From Gammaproteobacteria bacterium (GTDB lineage Bacteria > Pseudomonadota > Gammaproteobacteria > GCA-001735895): a stretch of 64,000 bases of DNA. Location of the stretch: NCBI GenBank assembly GCA_030066085.1, contig JASJCI010000006.1:62001-126000 (forward strand). The letters run 5' to 3'. The notes below the pieces were generated by a model. That model had not been told where the DNA came from, did no database searches, and saw nothing but the letters and a program-made list of their open reading frames with translations. A program made the translations under genes and the position numbers. Below, in pieces: positions 702-10,978 of this stretch (position 1 is the stretch's first letter; every line of letters begins with the position of its first letter).

Positions 702-1628
702 TCAGCCCAGCAACCAGACGTCGAGCACCGCACCCGAGAGCAGCAGAACCAGCTGCAGCAGTGACGCGGCGAAGCAGCGCATCGCGACCCGTGGCGAAGG
801 ATCGCCGACCATCAGCACATTGTGGTAGATGAAATACCCCCCGCCGCCGATCGCGGCCAGCGCGTAGATCCAGCCCATGCCATAAAACACCGGCGCAATC
901 GCGCAACCCACCAGCATCAGCGTGTTGAGCAGCACGATCTCGGCACAACGCTGGTTACCGACGACGATCGGCAGCATGGGTACGCCGGTCTTGGCGTAGT
1001 CCTTGTGCTTCGCGATCGCAAGTGCCCAGAAATGCGACGGTGTCCAGAAGAACAGTGCGAGTGCGAGCCAGATCGGGATCGGGCTCAGATCGGGATCAAC
1101 CGCAGCCGCGCCGGCGAGCACGGCGAAGCTGCCCGATGCACCGCCGATGACGATGTTGGTCCACGAGCGACGCTTGAGCCAGACGGTGTAGACGATCGCG
1201 TAGGTGAAGGCGCCGAGAAAAGTATACAGCGCGCTCGACAGGTTCAGCCACCAGGCCGCCGGCAGCAGGCCCGCCGCCAGCAACAGCAGGATGACACCGA
1301 GCCAGAGCGGGCGTTTCTCGAAATAGCCGGTCACGAACGGCCGCCGGCAGGTGCGCGGCATGCGCCGGTCGAGATCGACTTCCCAGTACTGGTTGAACGC
1401 ACCCGCGGCACCGGAAGCGAGCAGAATCGAGAAGCACAGGACCGCCATCTCGAAACTGCTCGGCGCCGGGCCCGGGGTCGCGATCATCGCCGCCAGTGCG
1501 GTCAGCACCATGATGATGCCAATACGCAGCTTGAGCAGGCTCGAGACCTGGCTCCAGAGCTGCCGCAGGCGCGCCGGCGCGGTGGCCGGCGCGCGTGGCG
1601 CGGTTTCGGGGATCAGCTGAGCGGCCAT
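702..1628 (-). CDS. ctaB: Protoheme IX farnesyltransferase (heme O synthase)
   Basis: This is a membrane prenyltransferase that adds a farnesyl group to heme b to make heme O, the precursor of heme A. It is 308 residues long, the usual family length, starting at the ATG at 1628. The prenyl-diphosphate motif is visible as NQYWEVDLDRRMPRT followed by CRRP, together with several hydrophobic helices. A longer open frame runs upstream to 2732 but is only an out-of-frame shadow of the subunit I gene. The start overlaps the subunit I stop by 16 bases, indicating translational coupling. Its presence suggests that the adjacent heme-copper enzyme, or another one in the cell, uses a farnesylated heme. 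Confidence 0.93.
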   Translation of the reverse strand: MAAQLIPETAPRAPATAPARLRQLWSQVSSLLKLRIGIIMVLTALAAMIATPGPAPSSFEMAVLCFSILLASGAAGAFNQYWEVDLDRRMPRTCRRPFVTGYFEKRPLWLGVILLLLAAGLLPAAWWLNLSSALYTFLGAFTYAIVYTVWLKRRSWTNIVIGGASGSFAVLAGAAAVDPDLSPIPIWLALALFFWTPSHFWALAIAKHKDYAKTGVPMLPIVVGNQRCAEIVLLNTLMLVGCAIAPVFYGMGWIYALAAIGGGGYFIYHNVLMVGDPSPRVAMRCFAASLLQLVLLLSGAVLDVWLLG

Positions 1629-3346
1629 ACCGATGCCAGGTAATCCCAGTTGATGAAGTAGTAGACGACGAAACACACCAGCAGAAACATCGCCAGCACG
1701 AAGGTCCCGGGCGCCTCGAAACCCGCCGAACCGTGCTCTTCCACCGCCAGTTTTGGTGCCATCGGCAAACGCTCCGGCTGCTCCACCGTGTACGAAGACG
1801 GTGCCAGCGGCACGCCGAATCCCTGCAACAGGCCGGCGGACTCGTCGAGCTTCTTGCCGAACAGCAGCGAACCCACGGTAACGACCAGGTACATCACGCC
1901 GCCGAGCACGCCGAGTACGCCGCCGATACCGGCGACGGCCATCATCGTGTAGGCCGTACCCGGATATTCGAAGGCCAGCATCGCGCCGGTGAAATCCATA
2001 TCCCAGTGCCGTCGCGACACCCCGAGCGTACCCGCGCCGAGCATGAACAGGATCATCAGCGTCATACCGGCCGAAAACACGTAGGGCTGCCACTTCGCCA
2101 TCCACGGCAGGAAGGTTTGCCGGCGGAACAGCACCGGGATCAGCAGGTAGGTCAGCGCCATGAACGCGAGCGTGGTGCCGACCGCGACCGTGGCGTGGAA
2201 ATGAGCCGGGACGTAGATCGTGTTGTGAATGATCAGGTTGATCTGTTCGGTACCCATGACCACGCCGGTGATGCCGCCGAGGAAGCCGAAGATGACCAGC
2301 GACAGAAAGAAGCCGGAGAACACCGGGTTGCCCCAGGGCGCCTTGCGCAGCCATTCGAACATGCCCTTGGTCAGGCCCTTCTGCCGCTGCGCGACCTCCA
2401 TCGAACCCGGCACCGTCAGGCCGTGGATCATGCTCGCGAGCACCGCGAGATACATCGCGTAGGAGGTGTTGAACACCTTGAATTCGGCCGACAGGCCCGG
2501 ATCGACCAGCACGTGGTGCGCGCAGGCCAGCTGCAGGAACAGGATGTAGAGCAGGAAAGCCATGCGGCTGACCTTTTCCGACATCGGCCGCGCGCCGAAC
2601 AGCACGCCGACCAGCAAGTACCAGACCGACACGTGCGCGGCGACGTTGATCTGCTGCGACGAGTGTCCCATGCCCCACCAGATCACGCGATACATGGCCG
2701 CGTCGATGTGGCCGACGTAGCCGATCGACCACAGGAAGGTCGGGATCAGGATGATGGCGCCGGACGCAATCGTGAACACGGCGATGATCGCCGCGGTAAT
2801 GGCGCCGAAGGTCACCAGCGGCACCGAGCCCTCGTAGGTCCGATCCTCTTTCGCGATCACCAGCGTGCCGAAGAACACCATGCAGCCAATCAGCGCGCCG
2901 ACCGCGAACAGGATCAGGCCGAGGTAAAAATGCGGCGCGGCCTGCATCGGCGCGTAAGACGTCATCATCACGCTCGAATTACCCTGCAGCACCGCGATGT
3001 TGTTCATCAGCGCACCGATAATCATCAACGCAAAGCCGAGCCAGGCCCAGCGCGGCGCGGCCAGCCGCGTGCGCAATAGCGTCGACGAGGCGAAGTACAG
3101 GATCGCGATCTCGAAGAAAATGATCCAGAAGATCAGCGCGTTGATACCGTGCCCGGTCAGCACCTGGTAAAAGACATCCGCCGGCAGCAGGTGGACTTCC
3201 TGCCAGCGCGTCAGGATCACGCCGAGACCGAGCAGCCCCGCGATCAGCAGGAACACCGCACCCGCCACCGCGTTGGCCTTCATCAGGCTTTCGGCGTTTT
3301 TATCGAAGTAAAAACCGGAATCGGGACAGACTCTGAACTGTGCCAT
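1613..3346 (-). CDS. norS: Heme-copper oxidoreductase subunit I, probable sNOR-type nitric oxide reductase (NorS)
   Basis: A 577-residue polytopic membrane protein of the heme-copper superfamily. The low-spin heme ligand is in LTGHGIN (H66). The active-site metal ligands are H228 in GMGHSSQQIN and the H278-H279 pair in CAHHVLVDPG. The heme ligands are in VPAHFHATV (H382, H384). In oxygen reductases of the A and B types the residue four after H228 is the cross-linked tyrosine (GHPEVY/GHPVVY). Here it is Gln232, so O2 chemistry by the normal mechanism is unlikely. The family known to combine a CuA subunit II, no tyrosine and a senC neighbour is the sNOR NO reductase (norSY). An FNR/Dnr-like box upstream of the operon agrees. 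The activity itself is inferred; an automated pipeline would call it cytochrome c oxidase subunit I. Confidence 0.8.
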   Translation of the reverse strand: MAQFRVCPDSGFYFDKNAESLMKANAVAGAVFLLIAGLLGLGVILTRWQEVHLLPADVFYQVLTGHGINALIFWIIFFEIAILYFASSTLLRTRLAAPRWAWLGFALMIIGALMNNIAVLQGNSSVMMTSYAPMQAAPHFYLGLILFAVGALIGCMVFFGTLVIAKEDRTYEGSVPLVTFGAITAAIIAVFTIASGAIILIPTFLWSIGYVGHIDAAMYRVIWWGMGHSSQQINVAAHVSVWYLLVGVLFGARPMSEKVSRMAFLLYILFLQLACAHHVLVDPGLSAEFKVFNTSYAMYLAVLASMIHGLTVPGSMEVAQRQKGLTKGMFEWLRKAPWGNPVFSGFFLSLVIFGFLGGITGVVMGTEQINLIIHNTIYVPAHFHATVAVGTTLAFMALTYLLIPVLFRRQTFLPWMAKWQPYVFSAGMTLMILFMLGAGTLGVSRRHWDMDFTGAMLAFEYPGTAYTMMAVAGIGGVLGVLGGVMYLVVTVGSLLFGKKLDESAGLLQGFGVPLAPSSYTVEQPERLPMAPKLAVEEHGSAGFEAPGTFVLAMFLLVCFVVYYFINWDYLASVWPLS

Positions 3347-3347
3347 C

Positions 3348-3887
3348 TCAATTCTCCTTGACGTAGATTTTGCCGAGCATCACGTGGTGCCCAATGCCGC
3401 AGAACTCGTTACAGACAACGGTGAATTCGCCCGCCTGGTCCGGCGTGACCGTCAGCACCATTTCGTAACCCGGGATGATCTGCAGGTTGATGTTGACCGG
3501 CTGCAACGAGAAACCGTGGTTCCAGTCCATCGACGACAGGTGCAGTCGGTAGGGCTGGTCCTTTTCCAGCTCCAGGATCGGGTACCACTGCCACAGGCGG
3601 CCCAGCATGTAGACGTCGCTGCCGACCGGCGGCTTGACGATCGGCATGCCGGCTTCCTCGCCGACCTGGTATTGCGCGACCATTTCGTCGACCCGCTGCT
3701 GGAATTTCGCCGGCGTGGTCTGGTAAGCCTCGCTCGACAGGTTCTGTTTTCCGTAGAGGTGCCAGTAAGGCATCATCAGGAACATGATCAGGCACCAGAC
3801 CAGCGCGATGCCGACCCAGATGACTTCCTGCTTACCGACTGGCGTGCTCCACCAGTTGCGTTCGGCGGGTGGTAGGAATGAACTCAT
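3348..3887 (-). CDS. norY: Heme-copper oxidoreductase subunit II with CuA site (NorY-like)
   Basis: A 179-residue protein with one N-terminal membrane helix (about residues 22-42) and a periplasmic cupredoxin domain that receives electrons from cytochrome c. The CuA site looks complete: an upstream His in MDWNHGFSL and the CNEFCGIGHHVM motif with the standard spacing C, E+2, C+4, H+8, M+11. It is much shorter than A-type CoxB and close to the single-helix subunit II of B-type enzymes. The start is set by a strong GGGAGG ribosome site at the end of the preceding small gene. One base separates it from subunit I. Together they form the electron-entry and catalytic pair of the putative sNOR. Confidence 0.85.
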   Translation of the reverse strand: MSSFLPPAERNWWSTPVGKQEVIWVGIALVWCLIMFLMMPYWHLYGKQNLSSEAYQTTPAKFQQRVDEMVAQYQVGEEAGMPIVKPPVGSDVYMLGRLWQWYPILELEKDQPYRLHLSSMDWNHGFSLQPVNINLQIIPGYEMVLTVTPDQAGEFTVVCNEFCGIGHHVMLGKIYVKEN

Positions 3888-4215: not shown

Positions 4216-4229
4216 TTGATAAAAGTCAA
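4216..4229. promoter_or_regulatory. FNR/Dnr-like binding box upstream of the norYS operon
   Basis: TTGAT-AAAA-GTCAA is a near-perfect match to the FNR/Dnr consensus TTGAT-N4-ATCAA. Its centre is about 142 bases upstream of the first operon start at 4080, far enough to allow a leader. The window itself encodes a Dnr-like regulator (14144-14872). Confidence 0.7.
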
Positions 4230-4271
4230 ATCGTCCAGGCCGCCGCAATCCGCAGGTCCTGCACCCGCGGC

Positions 4272-4440
4272 CTCATCGTCATCCCCGCGCAAGCGGTGAA
4301 CCCACTAGCGCTCATCGTCATCCCCGCGCAAGCAGTGAACTTACTAGCGCTCATCGTCATCCCCGCGCAAGCGGGGATCTTGTAATGCCGGCACCGTCAG
4401 CAGATCCCCGCCTGCGCGGCGGTCCGCCGATGCGGGATGA
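4272..4440. repeat. Tandem 39-bp repeats and GTCATCCCCGC hairpin sequences
   Basis: Three head-to-tail copies begin at 4272, 4311 and 4350. The unit is 39 bases and starts CTCATCGTCATCCCCGCGC. The first two are full length and differ at a few positions; the third is truncated and passes into CGCAAGCGGGGATCT, which can pair with the ATCCCCGCG of the repeat. A further palindromic stretch follows (4406-4440). The array fills the space between the divergent norYS and hemerythrin promoters. It has no spacers, so it is not CRISPR; it resembles dispersed REP-like hairpins. Confidence 0.8.
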
Positions 4441-4474
4441 CGGTTGCCACCGGACCCGCCGCCTGTATATGGCA

Positions 4475-4488
4475 TTGACATTAATCAA
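4475..4488. promoter_or_regulatory. FNR/Dnr-like binding box upstream of hemerythrin 1
   Basis: TTGAC-ATTA-ATCAA matches the FNR/Dnr dyad very well. It is centred about 67 bases before the ATG at 4549, compatible with class II activation if transcription starts about 40 bases downstream of the box. Confidence 0.75.
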
Positions 4489-4548: not shown

Positions 4549-5025
4549 ATGCCGTTGCTCGAATGGCGCGACGAATACCGCACCGGTATTCGTGGTGTCG
4601 ATTACGAACACGAAGAACTGATCGCCAGGATCAACGCGGTTTACGCCCTGGTCGAGGCCGCGGCTGAACGCGACGAAGTCATCGACGGCCTGGGTGAAAT
4701 TTACGGCAGCATCGCGGCGCACTTTGCGCTGGAAGAGCAGATGATGCGACGCTACGAGTATCCCGAGTACGACGCTCATCGCGCCGATCACGAGCGCCTG
4801 CTCGACGAGATCCGCGATATTTCCGACGCCTATGAACAGAACGTGCTAACCGATCGACAGGCGTTCGAGTGCCGCCTGCGCGACTGGTTCCAGAATCACT
4901 TCAGCACGCACGATGCGCGCCTGCATCGCATGTCAGGTATGCGCGAACACGACCCGGTCAGCGACTCGACGCTGCGAGGAATGATTCAGAATGCCAAGTA
5001 CAGACTACTCAATCGCAGGCGCTGA
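4549..5025 (+). CDS. Bacteriohemerythrin-like protein
   Basis: A 158-residue cytosolic four-helix protein with a hemerythrin di-iron site. The start MPLLEWRDEYRTGI at 4549 is preceded by CGGAG and gives the classic N-terminus. Ligand residues are seen in VDYEHEEL, AHFALEEQMM, AHRADHERLL and FQNHFSTHD. Hemerythrins of this type bind O2 or NO. The FNR/Dnr box just upstream and the NO-reductase neighbours make NO binding, delivery or defence the likely role. The downstream gene starts 1 base after its stop, so an operon with the 5027 gene and the SCO gene is expected. Confidence 0.88.
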   Translation: MPLLEWRDEYRTGIRGVDYEHEELIARINAVYALVEAAAERDEVIDGLGEIYGSIAAHFALEEQMMRRYEYPEYDAHRADHERLLDEIRDISDAYEQNVLTDRQAFECRLRDWFQNHFSTHDARLHRMSGMREHDPVSDSTLRGMIQNAKYRLLNRRR

Positions 5026-5026
5026 C

Positions 5027-5515
5027 GTGTTCCGCCGCCTGTTGCTGGCACTGCTTCTGCTGCTCCCGGCAGCCGCCGCCGGTGCTGATACCCGGCTTGG
5101 GGAAAGGCTGGACGGTTTCTACGCGCGCGAGGGTAACGACAGCAGCCCGGCCGCCGCCGCGGGTAACAACATCTACCTCAAGTTTTTCGAGGATCGCTGG
5201 ATTGGCCTGCTGTTCCTGCCCTACCCCTACGCGGTCGGCATGGACGTGGCGCGTATCGAGCGCGCATTCGGGGTGGCCCGTGCGCGTACCGACAGCGCGG
5301 CTTACCTGCGCGACAGTTTCGGTGAGTTCGATCAACTCGCGACGGCTCAAATCGAACGCTACGGCTACCTCGGCGATCGCATCGCCTTCGAATGTGGTGC
5401 GATGTCGGCCTGCACCCTGCGTTTTGGCGACGGATACATCGAGCTGGTCAAACCCGGCGTCATCAACGAGCACATCGTGCGTTATCACCACGTTGCCACG
5501 GGGAACGGCTCTTGA
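5027..5515 (+). CDS. Exported protein of unknown function
   Basis: With the GTG start at 5027 the protein is 162 residues and begins with a clear signal peptide (FRRLLLALLLLLPAAAAGA). The mature part is periplasmic, with two cysteines in ECGAMSACTLRF near the C-terminus and no recognisable domain. An ATG 36 bases earlier (4991) is possible but would overlap the hemerythrin gene and place charged residues before the signal peptide. It sits between a hemerythrin and a SCO protein and overlaps the SCO start by 4 bases, so a role in assembly of the nearby heme-copper enzyme is a reasonable guess, nothing more. Confidence 0.75.
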   Translation: MFRRLLLALLLLLPAAAAGADTRLGERLDGFYAREGNDSSPAAAAGNNIYLKFFEDRWIGLLFLPYPYAVGMDVARIERAFGVARARTDSAAYLRDSFGEFDQLATAQIERYGYLGDRIAFECGAMSACTLRFGDGYIELVKPGVINEHIVRYHHVATGNGS

Positions 5516-6171
5516 ATCACCAGGACCACGAGCGTCACGCCTTTCCGATCGGCAGCATCGTGCTCGCGCTGGGTTTTGCCGGCGTCATGCTGCTGACCTG
5601 GCTGCTGGTAAAACCGACGCCACCACCGGACGAGCTGAAAGCCGTGCTGCGGCCGGAATTCAGGCCGATCGCACCGTTTGTGCTGAGCTCCGGGGGTTAC
5701 GGACCGATCACCGAGAAAAACCTGCGTGACCGCTGGACCTTCGTATTCTTCGGTTACCTGTCCTGCCCGGATGTGTGCCCGAACACACTACACGAGCTGA
5801 ATACCCTGTGGAATCGACTGCGCGACGAGACCAGTACCGAGCCCGAGCAGGTACAGGTACTGTTCGTATCGGTGGATCCTGATCGGGACTCGACCGACCG
5901 GCTCGCATCCTACGTCGCGCACTTCAACCGGCGCTTTATCGGTGCTACCGCGGGCAAGGGCCAGATAGACCGTTTCGCGCGCCAGTTCGGCGCCGGCTAC
6001 GAATTCGAAACCGAACTGGCGCCCGGGCAGTACCTGGTGGCGCACACCAGCGCAATTTTCCTCGTCGACCCCCACGCCCGCGCGGTGGCAACCTTTTCCC
6101 AGCCGCACTACGCCAGCACGATTCATCGGCAGTTCCGCCAGATCGAGGACTGGTTCGAGGGCAGGACGTGA
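5512..6171 (+). CDS. SCO1/SenC/PrrC family protein, second copy
   Basis: A 219-residue membrane-anchored thioredoxin-fold protein with an N-terminal helix (GSIVLALGFAGVMLLTWLLV). It carries the SCO copper motif CPDVCP (in FFGYLSCPDVCPNT) and the distal His in VAHTSAIF. The best start is TTG at 5512, which overlaps the previous stop as TTGA and gives the anchor directly. SCO proteins supply or reduce copper for CuA or related sites. The nearest possible client is the divergent heme-copper subunit at 6491, which has no CuA partner in the window, so another redox role is also open. It is distinct from the SCO gene at 1-691. Confidence 0.88.
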   Translation: MNHQDHERHAFPIGSIVLALGFAGVMLLTWLLVKPTPPPDELKAVLRPEFRPIAPFVLSSGGYGPITEKNLRDRWTFVFFGYLSCPDVCPNTLHELNTLWNRLRDETSTEPEQVQVLFVSVDPDRDSTDRLASYVAHFNRRFIGATAGKGQIDRFARQFGAGYEFETELAPGQYLVAHTSAIFLVDPHARAVATFSQPHYASTIHRQFRQIEDWFEGRT

Positions 6172-6214
6172 CCGGCCTGTGCCCGCACTGCATCTCGAGT
6201 TACCTCAACCTGTC

Positions 6215-6237
6215 ATCCCGTGGTTTGACCACGGGAT
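6215..6237. repeat. Perfect hairpin, possible terminator or REP-like element
   Basis: ATCCCGTGG (6215-6223) and CCACGGGAT (6229-6237) form a perfect 9-bp stem with a 5-base loop. It is preceded by GTC, as in the GTCATCCC repeats elsewhere. A second imperfect stem follows (about 6271-6301). It lies between the converging ends of the SCO gene (6171) and the small minus-strand gene (6309), where a two-way terminator would fit. No other feature is seen in 6172-6308. Confidence 0.6.
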
Positions 6238-6308
6238 CCATGGCCGAAGTTTCGGTTCTATGCTTATTGGACCCCGCGGTTATCAGGCCGTGGGGTGACA
6301 GAGTCGGA

Positions 6309-6413
6309 TTACTCGTCCGGGCGGTCGCGTTTCTTACCCTGCCGGTACGCCCACACGAAATAGGCCGTGATCAGCAGCAGGTTGATGACCAGGCCGATCC
6401 CGAAAAACATCAT
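6309..6413 (-). CDS. 34-residue single-helix membrane peptide beside divergent heme-copper subunit
   Basis: ATG at 6413 is preceded by GAGG with 8-base spacing and encodes 34 residues: one membrane helix (GIGLVINLLLITAYFVWAY) and a charged tail (RQGKKRDRPDE). Third codon positions are strongly G/C, as in real genes here. The frame stays open upstream to an ATG at 6506, but that start would overlap the divergent subunit I gene. Size and shape resemble the 34-residue subunit IIa of Thermus ba3 oxidase. It probably belongs to the enzyme encoded at 6491-7891, but is transcribed away from it. Confidence 0.55.
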   Translation of the reverse strand: MMFFGIGLVINLLLITAYFVWAYRQGKKRDRPDE

Positions 6414-6490
6414 CGACGGTCCCTCGGCGCCGGCCGCGGGCGTTGGTACCTCGATCTGCGGGGTCGTGGTTTCGTTCAAGGGCCAGGCTC

Positions 6491-7891
6491 GTGAAAGCGG
6501 TTGCAAACCAGTTTACCCTTCCGACGCCTGATGGCAATGCCCGCCGACTGGTCACCGGCTGGCTCGCACTCGGTTTGGCCGCACTCGTCATCCCGGGTCT
6601 GTTCGCGATACTCATCGTGCTGTCACGCACACCGTTTTTCCAGGATCTCATTCCGTGGAAGGATTTTTTCAAAACAGCGCTGGTCATTCACGTCGACCTG
6701 ACCGTGCTGGTCTGGTTCATCGCTTTCGCCGGTGTGTTCTGGAGTTACAACAATTCACCGCGCGGGTTGCGCATCGGCTGGGCGGCTTTGTGGCTGGCCG
6801 CGATCGGCACCCTGGTCATCGTCGTCGCGCCGTTCACCGGCGAAAGCCGACCGTTGATGAACAACTACGTACCGGTGCTGCAAAACACGACTTTTTTCGC
6901 GGGCCTGATCGTTTTCGGCTTCGGTTTCCTGTTGCTGATCCTGCGCAGTTGTTTCACCGCGTTCGATACCGATAACCGCAGCAGCGGTGAAACCAGCCTG
7001 CGTTTCGGCCTGTTCGTCGCCGTAATCGCGTCGCTGTTCGCGCTCGGCGCGCTGGTGCTCTCCTGGCTTGGGATCGACGACGGCTTCGAGGGACTTGCCT
7101 ACTACGACAGACTGTTCTGGGGCAGCGGCCACATCATCCAGTTCAGCCATACCCAGCTCGTGCTGGTAGCCTGGCTGTGGCTGGCGTCGGTCAGCGGCAA
7201 TCGCCTGCGTATCTCGCCAAGGGTTGCGCTGTTCCTGTTCATCCTCGGGCTGCAGCCGGTACTCGCGTCGCCGGTTATCTACCTCGCCTTCGACGTCAGT
7301 TCGGGAGAGCACCTGTTCTGGTTTATCCAGTTGATGAAATTCGGCGGCGCCATCGCGGCGGTACCGATCGGCCTCGCGGTGCTATTGTCGATCATCGAAC
7401 AACCGCGCCCCGAACCCGGCAGCGAAATTGAGCGCAATGCACTGATCTACTCGGTGCTGTTGTTCGGCATCGGCGGCGGTATCGGCTTTTTGATCAGCGG
7501 CAGCAATGTCACCGTGCCGGCACATTATCATGGCTCGATCGTCGGCATCACGATTGCGTTCATGGGCATCACCTACCACCTGCTGCCACGTCTCGGTTTC
7601 GCGCGGGTCGAAGGCCGCCTGGCGCGCTGGCAACCCGGCATCTACGGCATCGGCCAGATCCTCCACGTCGCCGGCCTCGCCTGGTCGGGCGGCTACGACG
7701 TGGCGCGCAAATCGACCGAGGCCAGCCGCAGTTTCGAGCAGGTCGCGGGTATGGGATTGATGGGTTTCGGTGGCCTGGTATCGATCGTTGGCGGCATTAT
7801 TTTCCTGCTGCTGGTATTCCGCGCCATGCACCGGGGACACGCTCCGGCCGCGCTCGCGGTTAGCGACGAGTCCGCAGCGCAACGTCGGTAA
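6491..7891 (+). CDS. Divergent heme-copper oxidoreductase subunit I, candidate non-canonical NO reductase
   Basis: A polytopic membrane protein of about 466 residues (GTG start at 6491; an in-frame ATG at 6443 gives a longer, less likely form). The low-spin heme ligands appear to be H67 (VIHVDL) and one His of VPAHYHGSI (H345, H347). The helix with the first active-site His reads FWGSGHIIQFSHTQ: H214 is present, the tyrosine position is Phe218, and extra polar residues Q217, H220 and Q222 follow. The canonical His-His pair is absent where expected; the region reads LQPVLASPVIYLAF. It therefore cannot be a standard oxidase. Lineages with altered sites (gNOR, eNOR, nNOR) have been described as NO reductases, and one of these, perhaps gNOR, is my best guess. 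No CuA or cytochrome subunit is adjacent. Confidence 0.72.
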   Translation: MKAVANQFTLPTPDGNARRLVTGWLALGLAALVIPGLFAILIVLSRTPFFQDLIPWKDFFKTALVIHVDLTVLVWFIAFAGVFWSYNNSPRGLRIGWAALWLAAIGTLVIVVAPFTGESRPLMNNYVPVLQNTTFFAGLIVFGFGFLLLILRSCFTAFDTDNRSSGETSLRFGLFVAVIASLFALGALVLSWLGIDDGFEGLAYYDRLFWGSGHIIQFSHTQLVLVAWLWLASVSGNRLRISPRVALFLFILGLQPVLASPVIYLAFDVSSGEHLFWFIQLMKFGGAIAAVPIGLAVLLSIIEQPRPEPGSEIERNALIYSVLLFGIGGGIGFLISGSNVTVPAHYHGSIVGITIAFMGITYHLLPRLGFARVEGRLARWQPGIYGIGQILHVAGLAWSGGYDVARKSTEASRSFEQVAGMGLMGFGGLVSIVGGIIFLLLVFRAMHRGHAPAALAVSDESAAQRR

Positions 7892-7945
7892 GGCCTGCCG
7901 CCAGGGGCAATCCGACGCGCAGCCTGCGCTACTGCCCGCAGAATA

Positions 7946-8512
7946 CTAGTGTACGCCGCGAGCGATCAGAAACTCGCTGTACTGCTGGTCGGTGCCGTTG
8001 ATGTGATTGATCAGCCAGGCCTTCAGAAAGGCCAGCGCCTCCTGCAGCGCGCGATCCTCGTCGGCGCGATAGGCCTGCTGCAGTTGCTCCACTTTCGCCA
8101 CCATCTTTTCGTGTTCGGCGCGATGCGCCTGCAACGACGGATAACCATGTTCCTGCATGAGCTCTTCCTCGTAGCGAAAATGAATGCGCGTGTAGTCGAC
8201 TACCGCATCCAGGGCGGCACGCTCGTAGTCGCCGCCCGTGGCATAGTCGACCGTATTCTGCAGCCGGTTGATCAGTTCGATGAGCTGTCGGTGCTGTGCA
8301 TCGATCGATTCGATGCCGACGGAATACTCCGGTTTCCAGTGCACCAGGCGCGCCGCCGAGAGTTTGCTGTTGAAGAACGGCAACAGGACGAGAGACGCAA
8401 TGACCAGCCAGGTCAACGGGTGCCCCGGCGCGGTCGCGAGGCCCAGTATTGCGGCGGTCAGCAGCGCCAGGATCAGCACCGCCAACACGAACATGCGTAA
8501 CTTGTGGTTCAT
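7946..8512 (-). CDS. Membrane-anchored hemerythrin
   Basis: A 188-residue protein with two N-terminal membrane helices (about residues 6-26 and 33-48) followed by a hemerythrin domain. Ligand motifs are SIDAQHRQLIELI, HFRYEEELM, AHRAEHEKM and WLINHINGTDQQ. It is divergent from nirE, and the FNR/Dnr box at 8586-8599 lies 74 bases from its start, so both are likely switched on together under low oxygen or NO. Membrane location beside NO-producing and NO-consuming enzymes suggests trapping or handing over NO or O2 at the membrane; function is inferred from the family. Confidence 0.87.
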   Translation of the reverse strand: MNHKLRMFVLAVLILALLTAAILGLATAPGHPLTWLVIASLVLLPFFNSKLSAARLVHWKPEYSVGIESIDAQHRQLIELINRLQNTVDYATGGDYERAALDAVVDYTRIHFRYEEELMQEHGYPSLQAHRAEHEKMVAKVEQLQQAYRADEDRALQEALAFLKAWLINHINGTDQQYSEFLIARGVH

Positions 8513-8585
8513 GCGTCAGGCCTCGCTTCGCTCGCAGGCATCTTGGGATCGGCTTCATTCTAGCCACGCGCACCCCGGGGTGTGG

Positions 8586-8599
8586 TTGACATTTATCAA
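8586..8599. promoter_or_regulatory. FNR/Dnr-like box between hemerythrin 2 and nirE
   Basis: TTGAC-ATTT-ATCAA is an excellent dyad. It lies 74 bases from the hemerythrin start and about 109 bases from the nirE start, so one box could serve both divergent promoters. Confidence 0.75.
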
Positions 8600-8707
8600 A
8601 TACAAACTGGCCGAGTCTCCCAATAATCGTTTCGTATCCGGCGCTGCCGCCGTTGCCGCAGACAGGCCGGCGACAGGTTTCACAGCCCGCTGCAACAGGT
8701 GTTCCAG

Positions 8708-9514
8708 ATGACTAAAAAAGGCTTCGTTTCACTGGTGGGTGCAGGCCCCGGCGACCCCGACCTGCTCACCGTCAGGGCGCTGCGCTGTCTGCAAAAGGCA
8801 GATGTGGTCGTCTTCGACCGGCTCGTCAGCGACGCGGTCATGGCGCTGGTTCCAGCGGGCGTCAGCCGTATCTCGGTGGGTAAATCGCGCGCCTGCCACA
8901 CGCTGCCGCAGGATCAGATCAACGAGCTACTGGTCGACCTGGCGACCCCCGGACGTCGGGTTGTTCGACTCAAGGGTGGTGACCCCTATATTTTCGGCCG
9001 CGGCGGCGAGGAGGCACTCGAACTGCGCCGTAACGATATCGATTTCGAAGTGATCCCCGGTATCACCGCCGCTGCCGGGATCAGCTGTTATGCCGGTATT
9101 CCACTGACCCATCGCGGCCTGAGCCAGGGAGTGCATTTCGTCACCGGCCAGCTGCAGCATGGCGACGCGGCCGCGATCGACTGGCGCTGCCTGGCCAAAC
9201 CCGACACCACGCTGGTCATTTACATGGGGCTCGGCAACCTGCCCTACATCTGCGCCGAACTCATCGCCGCCGGGCTCGACACCTCGACCCCGGCAGCGGC
9301 GATACACCGCGGCACCCAGGCAACCCAGCAAAAGGTGATCTCGACCCTGGCCGGCCTGCCGGTGGAAGTGTCGCGCGCCGGACTGCGCTCGCCGGTTGCC
9401 ACCATCGTGGGCCAGGTGGTAAGCCTGTCGGAAGAGCTCGACTGGTTTACCAACCGGGGCGAGCCGGCCATCGAGGATTTCGATCATGAAAGCCTGGACC
9501 TGGCTCGCGCCTAG
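8708..9514 (+). CDS. nirE: Uroporphyrinogen-III C-methyltransferase for heme d1 synthesis
   Basis: A 268-residue SAM-dependent methyltransferase that converts uroporphyrinogen III to precorrin-2, the first committed step toward heme d1. The N-terminus shows the SUMT signature VSLVGAGPGDPDLLT, then RLKGGDPYIFGRGGEE and VVPGIT-like EVIPGITAAAGI. ATG at 8708 is preceded by AGGTG; a GTG at 8699 is possible but less likely. It lacks the CysG N-terminal oxidase/ferrochelatase part. It heads a tightly packed nir operon and overlaps nirC, so NirE is a better name than CobA. Expression probably depends on the box at 8586. Confidence 0.92.
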   Translation: MTKKGFVSLVGAGPGDPDLLTVRALRCLQKADVVVFDRLVSDAVMALVPAGVSRISVGKSRACHTLPQDQINELLVDLATPGRRVVRLKGGDPYIFGRGGEEALELRRNDIDFEVIPGITAAAGISCYAGIPLTHRGLSQGVHFVTGQLQHGDAAAIDWRCLAKPDTTLVIYMGLGNLPYICAELIAAGLDTSTPAAAIHRGTQATQQKVISTLAGLPVEVSRAGLRSPVATIVGQVVSLSEELDWFTNRGEPAIEDFDHESLDLARA

Positions 9515-9818
9515 ACTCATGTCCGGCCTGGTGCTCGCCGCCCCGGTATTCGCGGCCGATTTACCGACCGCCGAACGGGCGCGGGAATTGCAAAACCTGC
9601 TGATACAGGACTGCGGCTCCTGCCACGGTCTGAAAATGCGCGGCGGTCTCGGGCCGGGCCTGCTGCCCGAGCAGCTGTCCAGTCGTTCGCCGGAATACCT
9701 GACGACGATCATCCTGTACGGCAAACCGGGCAGTGCCATGCCGGCCTGGCGCGGGCTGTTGACGCCATCCGAGGCACGCTGGATCGCGCAACGCCTGCTA
9801 GAGGGTCCCGACTCATGA
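9486..9818 (+). CDS. nirC: Small periplasmic cytochrome c, NirC-like
   Basis: A 110-residue protein with a signal peptide (about 22 residues ending VFAAD) and one heme c site, CGSCH, with a likely axial Met in GSAMPAWRGLL. It overlaps the nirE end by 29 bases and the nirF start by 4. In denitrifiers NirC is a monoheme cytochrome that can donate electrons to cd1 nitrite reductase and takes part in heme d1 maturation. The name rests on size, motif and position; other small cytochromes would look similar. Confidence 0.8.
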   Translation: MKAWTWLAPRLMSGLVLAAPVFAADLPTAERARELQNLLIQDCGSCHGLKMRGGLGPGLLPEQLSSRSPEYLTTIILYGKPGSAMPAWRGLLTPSEARWIAQRLLEGPDS

Positions 9819-10978
9819 AACGCTGCCTGCTATTCGTCGCCCTGCTGATCAGCGCATCGACGCTGCAGGCACGCGGCACCGGGGATCTCGGCGTACTGAT
9901 CGAGCGTGCCAGCAGCAGCGTGCAAATCGTCGAGACCAGCAACAATACCAGCCTCAAGCGCGTCGCCGGTCTCGGCGATTTGTCGCATGCATCAGTGGTG
10001 TACTCACGCGATGCGCGCTACGCCTATGTTTTCGGCCGTGATGGCGGACTCAGCAAGGTCGACCTGCTCGACGGCAGCATCGCGGCTCGAAGGCTGCAGT
10101 CGGGCAACAGTATCGGCGGCGCCATTTCCCAGGACGGGCGCCTGATCGCGGTTTCGAATTACGACCCCGGCGGAGTGCGGGTGTTCGATGCGCACAGTCT
10201 CGAGCCGGTGGCCGACATCCCCGCTACCTACGGCGACGACCGGGCGCGCTCGAAAGTCATCGGCCTGGTCGATGCCCCCGACGACCGGTTCGTATTCGCG
10301 CTGTGGGACGCCGGCGAAATCTGGGTGCTGGATATGTCCGACCGCGACCGGCCGCAGGTGACTCGTTACCGCAACATTGGCCGCCAGCCTTACGACGCAC
10401 TGATCACCGGCGACGGCCGCTACTACATCGCCGGACTGTTCGGCGAGGACGGCATGGCTTTGCTCGATCTGTGGAATCCGGACCGGGGTGTGCGCCGGAT
10501 TCTGTCCGGCTACGGGCGCGGCGAGCAAAAGTTGCCGGTGTACAAGATGCCGCATCTCGAGGGCTGGGCAGTGGCCGGCAATTACGCCTTTGTACCCGCC
10601 ATCGGCCGCCACGAAGTCCTCTTGATCGATATGCAGAACTGGACCGAGGCCGGCCGAATCGCGGTGCATGGGCAGCCGATATTCGTCATGGCGCGGCCCG
10701 ACGGTCGCCAGGTCTGGGTCAATTTTGCGCTGCCCGATAACGACACCATCGAGGTGATCGATACGCAGTCGCTCGAAATCGTGCACCGGCTGCGGCCCGG
10801 CAAGGGCGTGCTGCACATGGAGTTCGAACCGCGCGGCGAGGAAGTCTGGCTGTCGGTGCGCGACGAAAATCGCGTCGAGGTGTACGACACGCGCAGCTTC
10901 GAGCGCAAGGCAGCCATACCCGCAAGCAAACCCAGCGGCATCTTTTTCACCGCGCGCGCGCACCGGATCGGCCTGTGA
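9815..10978 (+). CDS. nirF: Heme d1 biosynthesis protein NirF
   Basis: A 387-residue periplasmic beta-propeller protein, the usual length for NirF, with a short signal peptide (RCLLFVALLISASTLQA). The propeller resembles the d1 domain of NirS/NirN (for example VYSRDARYAYVFGRDG and MPHLEGWAVAGNYAF), but there is no cytochrome c domain, which separates NirF from NirN and NirS. NirF acts in a late periplasmic step of heme d1 formation, dehydrogenation of the precursor. It is translationally coupled to nirC and nirD through 4-base ATGA/GTGA overlaps. Confidence 0.9.
   Translation: MKRCLLFVALLISASTLQARGTGDLGVLIERASSSVQIVETSNNTSLKRVAGLGDLSHASVVYSRDARYAYVFGRDGGLSKVDLLDGSIAARRLQSGNSIGGAISQDGRLIAVSNYDPGGVRVFDAHSLEPVADIPATYGDDRARSKVIGLVDAPDDRFVFALWDAGEIWVLDMSDRDRPQVTRYRNIGRQPYDALITGDGRYYIAGLFGEDGMALLDLWNPDRGVRRILSGYGRGEQKLPVYKMPHLEGWAVAGNYAFVPAIGRHEVLLIDMQNWTEAGRIAVHGQPIFVMARPDGRQVWVNFALPDNDTIEVIDTQSLEIVHRLRPGKGVLHMEFEPRGEEVWLSVRDENRVEVYDTRSFERKAAIPASKPSGIFFTARAHRIGL

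Follow-up and report, generated by a model that had tools for sequence, protein, structure and literature searches.

We propose that the gene at positions 6491–7891 of the window (the whole stretch of 64,000 nucleotides analysed here), hereafter the target, encodes a CuB-less, two-heme paralogue of heme-copper (HCO) subunit I whose dedicated role is to assist heme-copper reductases that contain CuA, most likely in their maturation; we give this proposal about even probability. In the source genome the partner would be the neighbouring eNOR-like enzyme, and the target itself would not reduce NO or O2. The protein would bind two hemes, the second of them in a pocket where H214, Q217 and possibly M282, rather than copper, may face it. 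The least certain step is maturation itself, in which the target may hold, reduce or pass on heme or copper during the assembly of the catalytic subunit I and of the CuA subunit paired with it. The features of the locus and the key codons of the target are as follows.

702–1610, minus strand: CtaB-type heme O synthase frame downstream of the eNOR-like subunit I gene, 5' end approximate (translation; same family in annotated records; synteny)
1613–3346, minus strand: eNOR-like subunit I, the likely NO reductase of the locus (COX1, E 2e-60; active-site alignment; tree)
3348–3887, minus strand: CuA subunit II of the eNOR-like enzyme (PF00116/CoxB matches)
4216–4488, no strand: divergent promoter region with two FNR/Dnr-like boxes, 4216–4229 and 4475–4488 (pattern match only)
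4991–5515, plus strand: conserved 174-aa protein, an eNOR-cluster gene (synteny; no Pfam match)
5503–6171, plus strand: SCO copper chaperone upstream of the target (PF02630, E 2e-33; synteny)
6491–7891, plus strand: the target, a putative CuB-less heme-copper subunit I paralogue of 466 aa with a GTG start (ORF, Pfam, AlphaFold, Foldseek, conservation)
6689–6691, plus strand: codon of H67, low-spin heme ligand in TM2 (aligns with the TM2 His of HCOs; 108 of 108 relatives having the position)
7130–7141, plus strand: codons of H214 to Q217, the first CuB His kept and a Gln at H+3, in TM6 (invariant)
7268–7282, plus strand: codons of residues 260–264 (S-P-V-I-Y), the place of the canonical CuB His-His in TM7 (alignment with eNOR, B-type and A-type HH)
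7334–7336, plus strand: codon of M282, a near-invariant Met in TM8 (107 of 110 relatives)
7523–7531, plus strand: codons of H345-Y346-H347, high-spin and low-spin heme ligands in TM10 (109 of 109, invariant)

The target frame starts with GTG at 6491 and its stop codon ends at 7891; an in-frame TTG lies upstream at 6443. The translated protein matches Pfam COX1 above the cut-off (E 3.4e-15), while a sequence search of the PDB gave a single weak match, to cytochrome c oxidase subunit I (E 0.009), and the NCBIfam search found no relevant model, with one chance match (E 0.098). The AlphaFold model, based on 23 members of the family (pLDDT 81, pTM 0.86), aligned with heme-copper subunit I chains at Z of about 30 over 400+ residues, and its first Foldseek match was the ba3 oxidase of Thermus thermophilus (TM 0.74, about 20% identity). 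By its COX1 domain and predicted 12-helix subunit I fold, the target belongs to the HCO superfamily. A small single-helix reading frame of about 55 aa, ending in ...YRQGKKRDRPDE, lies on the minus strand at 6309–6476 between the SCO gene and the target.

Alignment with eNOR, B-type and A-type subunits I indicated that the target retains all three heme ligands (H67, H345 and H347) and the first CuB His (H214), that the CuB His-His pair is replaced by I263/Y264, and that the Tyr position is occupied by F218. These results agree with the preliminary description, which had reported that the first active-site His and the heme His are kept (GSGHIIQFSHTQ and VPAHYH are both found in the protein, and these His are invariant in relatives), that the HH pair is missing and that the Tyr is replaced by Phe. 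HH occurs nowhere in the 466-aa sequence, and none of the 111 distinct relatives has it at the TM7 pair place. A shifted His-His pair was also rejected, as the sole HH near TM7 in the relatives is a chance one at or beside residue 274, in a loop (2 of 111). On the other hand, the earlier suggestion that extra His/Gln residues one turn further could replace the ligands did not hold: residue 220 is H in 83 and N in 21 of 109 relatives and Q222 is present in 55 of 109, so they form no family-wide replacement ligand set, and H392 was rejected together with H220 and Q222 for the same lack of invariance. The family-wide residues are instead Q217 and M282. The H+3 position is Q in both the target and eNOR and V in A/B oxidases, and the position of M282 is Ala, Leu or Phe in true HCOs. 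Moreover, an eight-residue deletion has removed from the family the HN(T)/HD(T) loop before TM10, which true HCOs keep. This loop forms part of the Mg/propionate region, close to the site where electrons enter from CuA.

With regard to known classes, catalytic HCO members have been defined by six conserved His, of which three bind heme and three CuB/FeB (PMC3084760). Four of them are present in the target, and the TM7 pair is missing from the target and the 111 relatives. The residue at the Tyr position is Q in eNOR, N in sNOR, D in gNOR and N in bNOR (CuANOR), while in cNOR/qNOR the active-site residue is Glu (PMC8756737 Table A4). With F218 and no HH, the target carries neither the Gln mark of eNOR, which the neighbour at 1613–3346 has, nor the Asp mark of gNOR, nor the Glu and three FeB His of cNOR/qNOR, nor the GHxxxY and HH of B-type oxygen reductases. 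It resembles gNOR, sNOR and bNOR, which are proposed B-family NORs, in departing from the oxidase active site, but differs from them in having F rather than D or N and in lacking HH. The heme ligands correspond to those of the Thermus ba3 oxidase (B-type), while the CuB pair, the cross-linkable Tyr and the HN loop of that enzyme are absent from the target, which falls on a branch other than that of the B-type references. Compared with eNOR subunit I, which is its genetic neighbour, the target has the same fold and the same WGxGHxxQ motif (Q at H+3), and both have Y126, W75 and W228. Missing from the target are the HH, the second Gln and the HN loop; its length is less by about 110 aa, and RK stands in place of RR.

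In an IQ-TREE analysis of 70 sequences, with eNOR, B-type and A-type subunits I for comparison, the target family formed one clade (support 100/100). The eNOR subunits I formed another (95/98) that excludes the target family, and the B-type references a third (97/92). The target does not group with eNOR subunits I, and the mention of a possible new clade in the preliminary description is borne out in this respect. When the single A-type row was taken as the outgroup, the target family was sister to eNOR, though the branch of that row is very long.

The species genome collection supplied 34 loci. In a profile search, 58 of the 398 Pseudomonadota genomes proved to carry the family (the list had 59, from which G251 was left out, since it matched only through eNOR), as did 24 of 198 genomes from the phylum to which the Nitrospirae MAG belongs and 8 of 198 from that of a 'Deltaproteobacteria' MAG. 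The family is therefore present in about 15% of the sampled Pseudomonadota and 12% of the sampled Nitrospirota genomes, and the 111 distinct relatives span three phyla; none was found in plasmid records. Wherever the positions are present in these 111 proteins, R46, H67, W75, Y126, W210, G213, H214, Q217, H345, Y346, H347, R406 and K407 are invariant. The invariance of H67, H214, Q217, H345 and H347 is more than chance. Mean column identity is 64% across 23 family sequences. Selection has kept heme ligation while the catalytic features went, and the target is a member of a conserved family rather than a decayed gene. That it is a decaying subunit I pseudogene is hardly credible: the loss of active-site ligands and a few broken copies would fit, but the conservation across phyla, the invariant heme ligands and the column identity speak against it. 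The broken copies are those of G007 and L024, with internal stops or split frames. In L102, the target-family domain ends a 1542-aa open frame (5517–10145) without any other Pfam domain.

The genetic setting of the target is that of denitrification (Dnr/nir), in support of the Dnr-type island recognised earlier. The genome contains four COX1 proteins, namely two large canonical ones elsewhere (C9 and C57), the eNOR-like protein and the target, and cNOR is likely absent. The contig of the target also carries three full-length cytochrome d1-type genes, of which one falls within the window, at the nirF-type gene. The neighbour at 1613–3346 carries HxxQQ, HH and HFH, and it is likely that this protein with the CuA subunit at 3348–3887, not the target, is the NO reductase of the locus. 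The statement that no CuA subunit is adjacent is correct in the narrow sense, but on the opposite strand, at a distance of 2.6 kb, there is a CuA gene paired with the canonical subunit I. The family of the frame at 702–1610 is named heme o synthase in annotated records, and hemerythrins accompany the eNOR-like gene. The 174-aa protein gave no match in Pfam and NCBIfam searches and is conserved in eNOR clusters of several lineages. The FNR/Dnr-like boxes at 4216 and 4475, with one mismatch each, lie between the eNOR side and the SCO-target side; with up to two mismatches, the pattern has 25 matches in the window against 9.6 expected. Another box with one mismatch is found at 8586–8599, upstream of a SUMT-type gene.

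To see how the family is linked to eNOR, eNOR was called in the 398 Pseudomonadota genomes with that of the window as query (E below 1e-70). It was found in 30 genomes, 29 of which also have the target family, and another 29 carry the target family but no eNOR (Fisher p 8e-27, uncorrected for phylogeny or shared descent). Within the genus of the window, 18 genomes have both, 3 the target only, 1 eNOR only and 9 neither, and the gene order of the locus is kept. In other phyla, the target lies in the operons CuA-eNOR-target-CtaB-SCO (L032 and L215), and eNOR-target-CtaB is found in L211. The Nitrospirota have it in aa3-type operons, in the orders COX3-SCO-CuA-COX1-target (L204–L206), COX3-SCO-CuA-COX1-CtaB-target (L197 and L203; L198 is similar with COX3 not in view) and COX3-SCO-CuA-COX1-CtaA-CtaB-target-DUF420 (L213 and L214), and the COX1 of these operons retains HH. 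Two genomes have two copies each: one in an eNOR operon and one beside a COX operon in G488, one by eNOR and one by CtaA/CtaB in G291. Across the family tree, the partner label switches between eNOR and COX at least 8–9 times by a quick method. The alternating partner type and the mixed operons argue for a general partner of CuA-type HCOs over a NO-specific enzyme. Among 84 loci, the neighbours were SCO (38), CtaB (29), CuA (28), CtaA (24) and an HH-type B-family HCO (23). No labelled partner was near 31 of 105 members, partly because contigs are short. On the other hand, eNOR-like clusters without the target family nearby were found on plasmids of Defluviimonas (L106), Thermus (L107) and Thermomicrobium (L108), so that the target is not universally needed; the Thermus cluster adjoins nirS.

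A robust subclade (100/99) has ten members, several of which carry a C-terminal TPR after a predicted extra helix. These lie beside genes for an 11-CXXCH cytochrome c, ResB, a CcsA-type Cytochrom_C_asm protein and NHL-repeat proteins, so that the setting of this TPR-fused branch is heme-protein assembly or electron transfer. Fused or divergent relatives, several of them with a C-terminal TPR and with neighbours of these kinds, include L091, L092, L095, L097, L100, L133 and L136.

The accessory role is suggested by the invariant heme ligands, H214, Q217, R406 and K407 in 111 relatives that have no HH in TM7, by the loss of the HN/HD loop and of active-site residues in TM6 and TM7, by the separate clade of the family, by the repeated linkage to eNOR and aa3 operons with CtaA, CtaB, SCO and DUF420 genes, and by the presence of ResB and CcsA cytochrome c maturation genes around the TPR-fused subclade. 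Against it, the 11-heme cytochrome next to this subclade would be equally in keeping with electron transfer. Moreover, maturation genes are in any case found together with structural HCO genes, and an assembly factor, an additional subunit and an electron carrier cannot be told apart by their neighbourhood. Alternatively, the target could be an additional subunit for electron transfer: a membrane-bound cytochrome b taking electrons from quinol or cytochrome c and passing them to the CuA-type reductase, or to the multiheme cytochrome c in the case of the TPR-fused group. The two conserved heme sites, the mostly respiratory clusters, the 11-CXXCH cytochrome with ResB/CcsA and the cytochrome b/FeS protein in a nearby place of eNOR clusters are all consistent with this role. 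However, eNOR clusters have a cytochrome b already, and the HN/HD loop near the CuA electron entry of canonical subunit I is deleted in the target. Both hemes of the HCO subunit I fold lie at one membrane depth, so the target cannot carry electrons across the membrane. We regard electron transfer as fairly unlikely.

The preliminary description took NO reduction of the gNOR, eNOR or nNOR type as a reasonable guess for the target itself. This is not supported for the gNOR/eNOR type, since the eNOR-like proteins aligned keep HH, the neighbour is the eNOR-like protein of the locus and relatives also occur in aa3 operons; the NOR reading leaves their presence inside aa3 cytochrome c oxidase operons unexplained. 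A stand-alone NO reductase is unlikely. More broadly, catalysis of NO (or O2) reduction with an altered or missing second metal would be compatible with the HCO fold with both heme sites and the first His, with the nir/Dnr island and with the sister position to eNOR under the A-type outgroup; a metal with a reduced set of ligands might be bound by H214, Q217 and M282, and a reaction at a mononuclear heme is compatible with the sequence. Nevertheless, the relatives have kept neither of the TM7 ligands, nor the Tyr/Gln residue or the HN loop, and no set of His that could replace the ligands is invariant. In eNOR and COX operons, moreover, an intact HCO stands beside the target. Own catalysis is thus rather improbable in our estimate.

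A further reading is a heme-based NO/O2 sensor, in which His214 and Gln217 would form the distal pocket of the second heme and ligand binding would be signalled, through the TPR in the fused forms. Both residues are invariant and would face the vacated site, TPR fusions exist, and a Dnr-type regulator, hemerythrins and FNR-like boxes are nearby, but the members examined have no recognised signalling domain, the neighbours are mainly structural and maturation genes rather than regulators, and the TPR follows a predicted 13th TM and would hence be periplasmic (by hydropathy only). This role is improbable as well.

CtaA (COX15) heme A synthase binds two hemes. CtaA and CtaB, which act in HCO maturation, are like the target membrane proteins found in the same operons, but they belong to different Pfam families, and CtaA co-occurs with the target in Pseudomonadota. 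It is very doubtful that the target is an alternative heme A synthase replacing CtaA. CtaA or CtaB is adjacent in many genomes, and all 8 Nitrospirota genomes with one COX clade and the target family have no CtaA. However, CtaA is present in 9 of 9 tested Pseudomonadota carriers, 17 Nitrospirota genomes with A-type COX have neither CtaA nor the target family, and 3 have CtaA without the target family; the cross-table of presence and absence gives no support to a CtaA substitute. In Nitrospirota, 26 of 37 genomes with A-type COX1 show no CtaA match; in these, the oxidases may work with heme B or O, or heme A may be made in a different way.

Our literature searches for a CuB-less subunit I gave nothing relevant; the main survey of NOR diversity (Murali 2024), which defines nNOR, lay outside their scope. 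We found no description of the family in the literature searched, and the NOR classes with which it was compared were eNOR, gNOR, sNOR, bNOR and cNOR/qNOR. A lead to norSY-senC-orf1 of Nitrosomonas was dropped, as orf1 is named without description in the accessible part of the source. HCO catalogues filter on six His ligands (PMC3084760) or on conserved ligands by manual curation (PMC12569097). A CuB-less family would be dropped from such catalogues, which would explain its absence there, while Pfam still labels it COX1.

Finally, the family sits inside or beside operons of working respiratory enzymes. At somewhat less than even confidence, we suggest that it is an HCO core turned into a widespread, previously undescribed CuB-less two-heme membrane protein that may assemble or regulate true HCOs (eNOR and aa3) and, in the TPR-fused branch, multiheme cytochromes. 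In surveys of denitrification, such genes should not be counted as NO reductases. If the target is an assembly or regulatory partner, it would be a new component in the supply of heme and copper to eNOR and aa3 oxidases.
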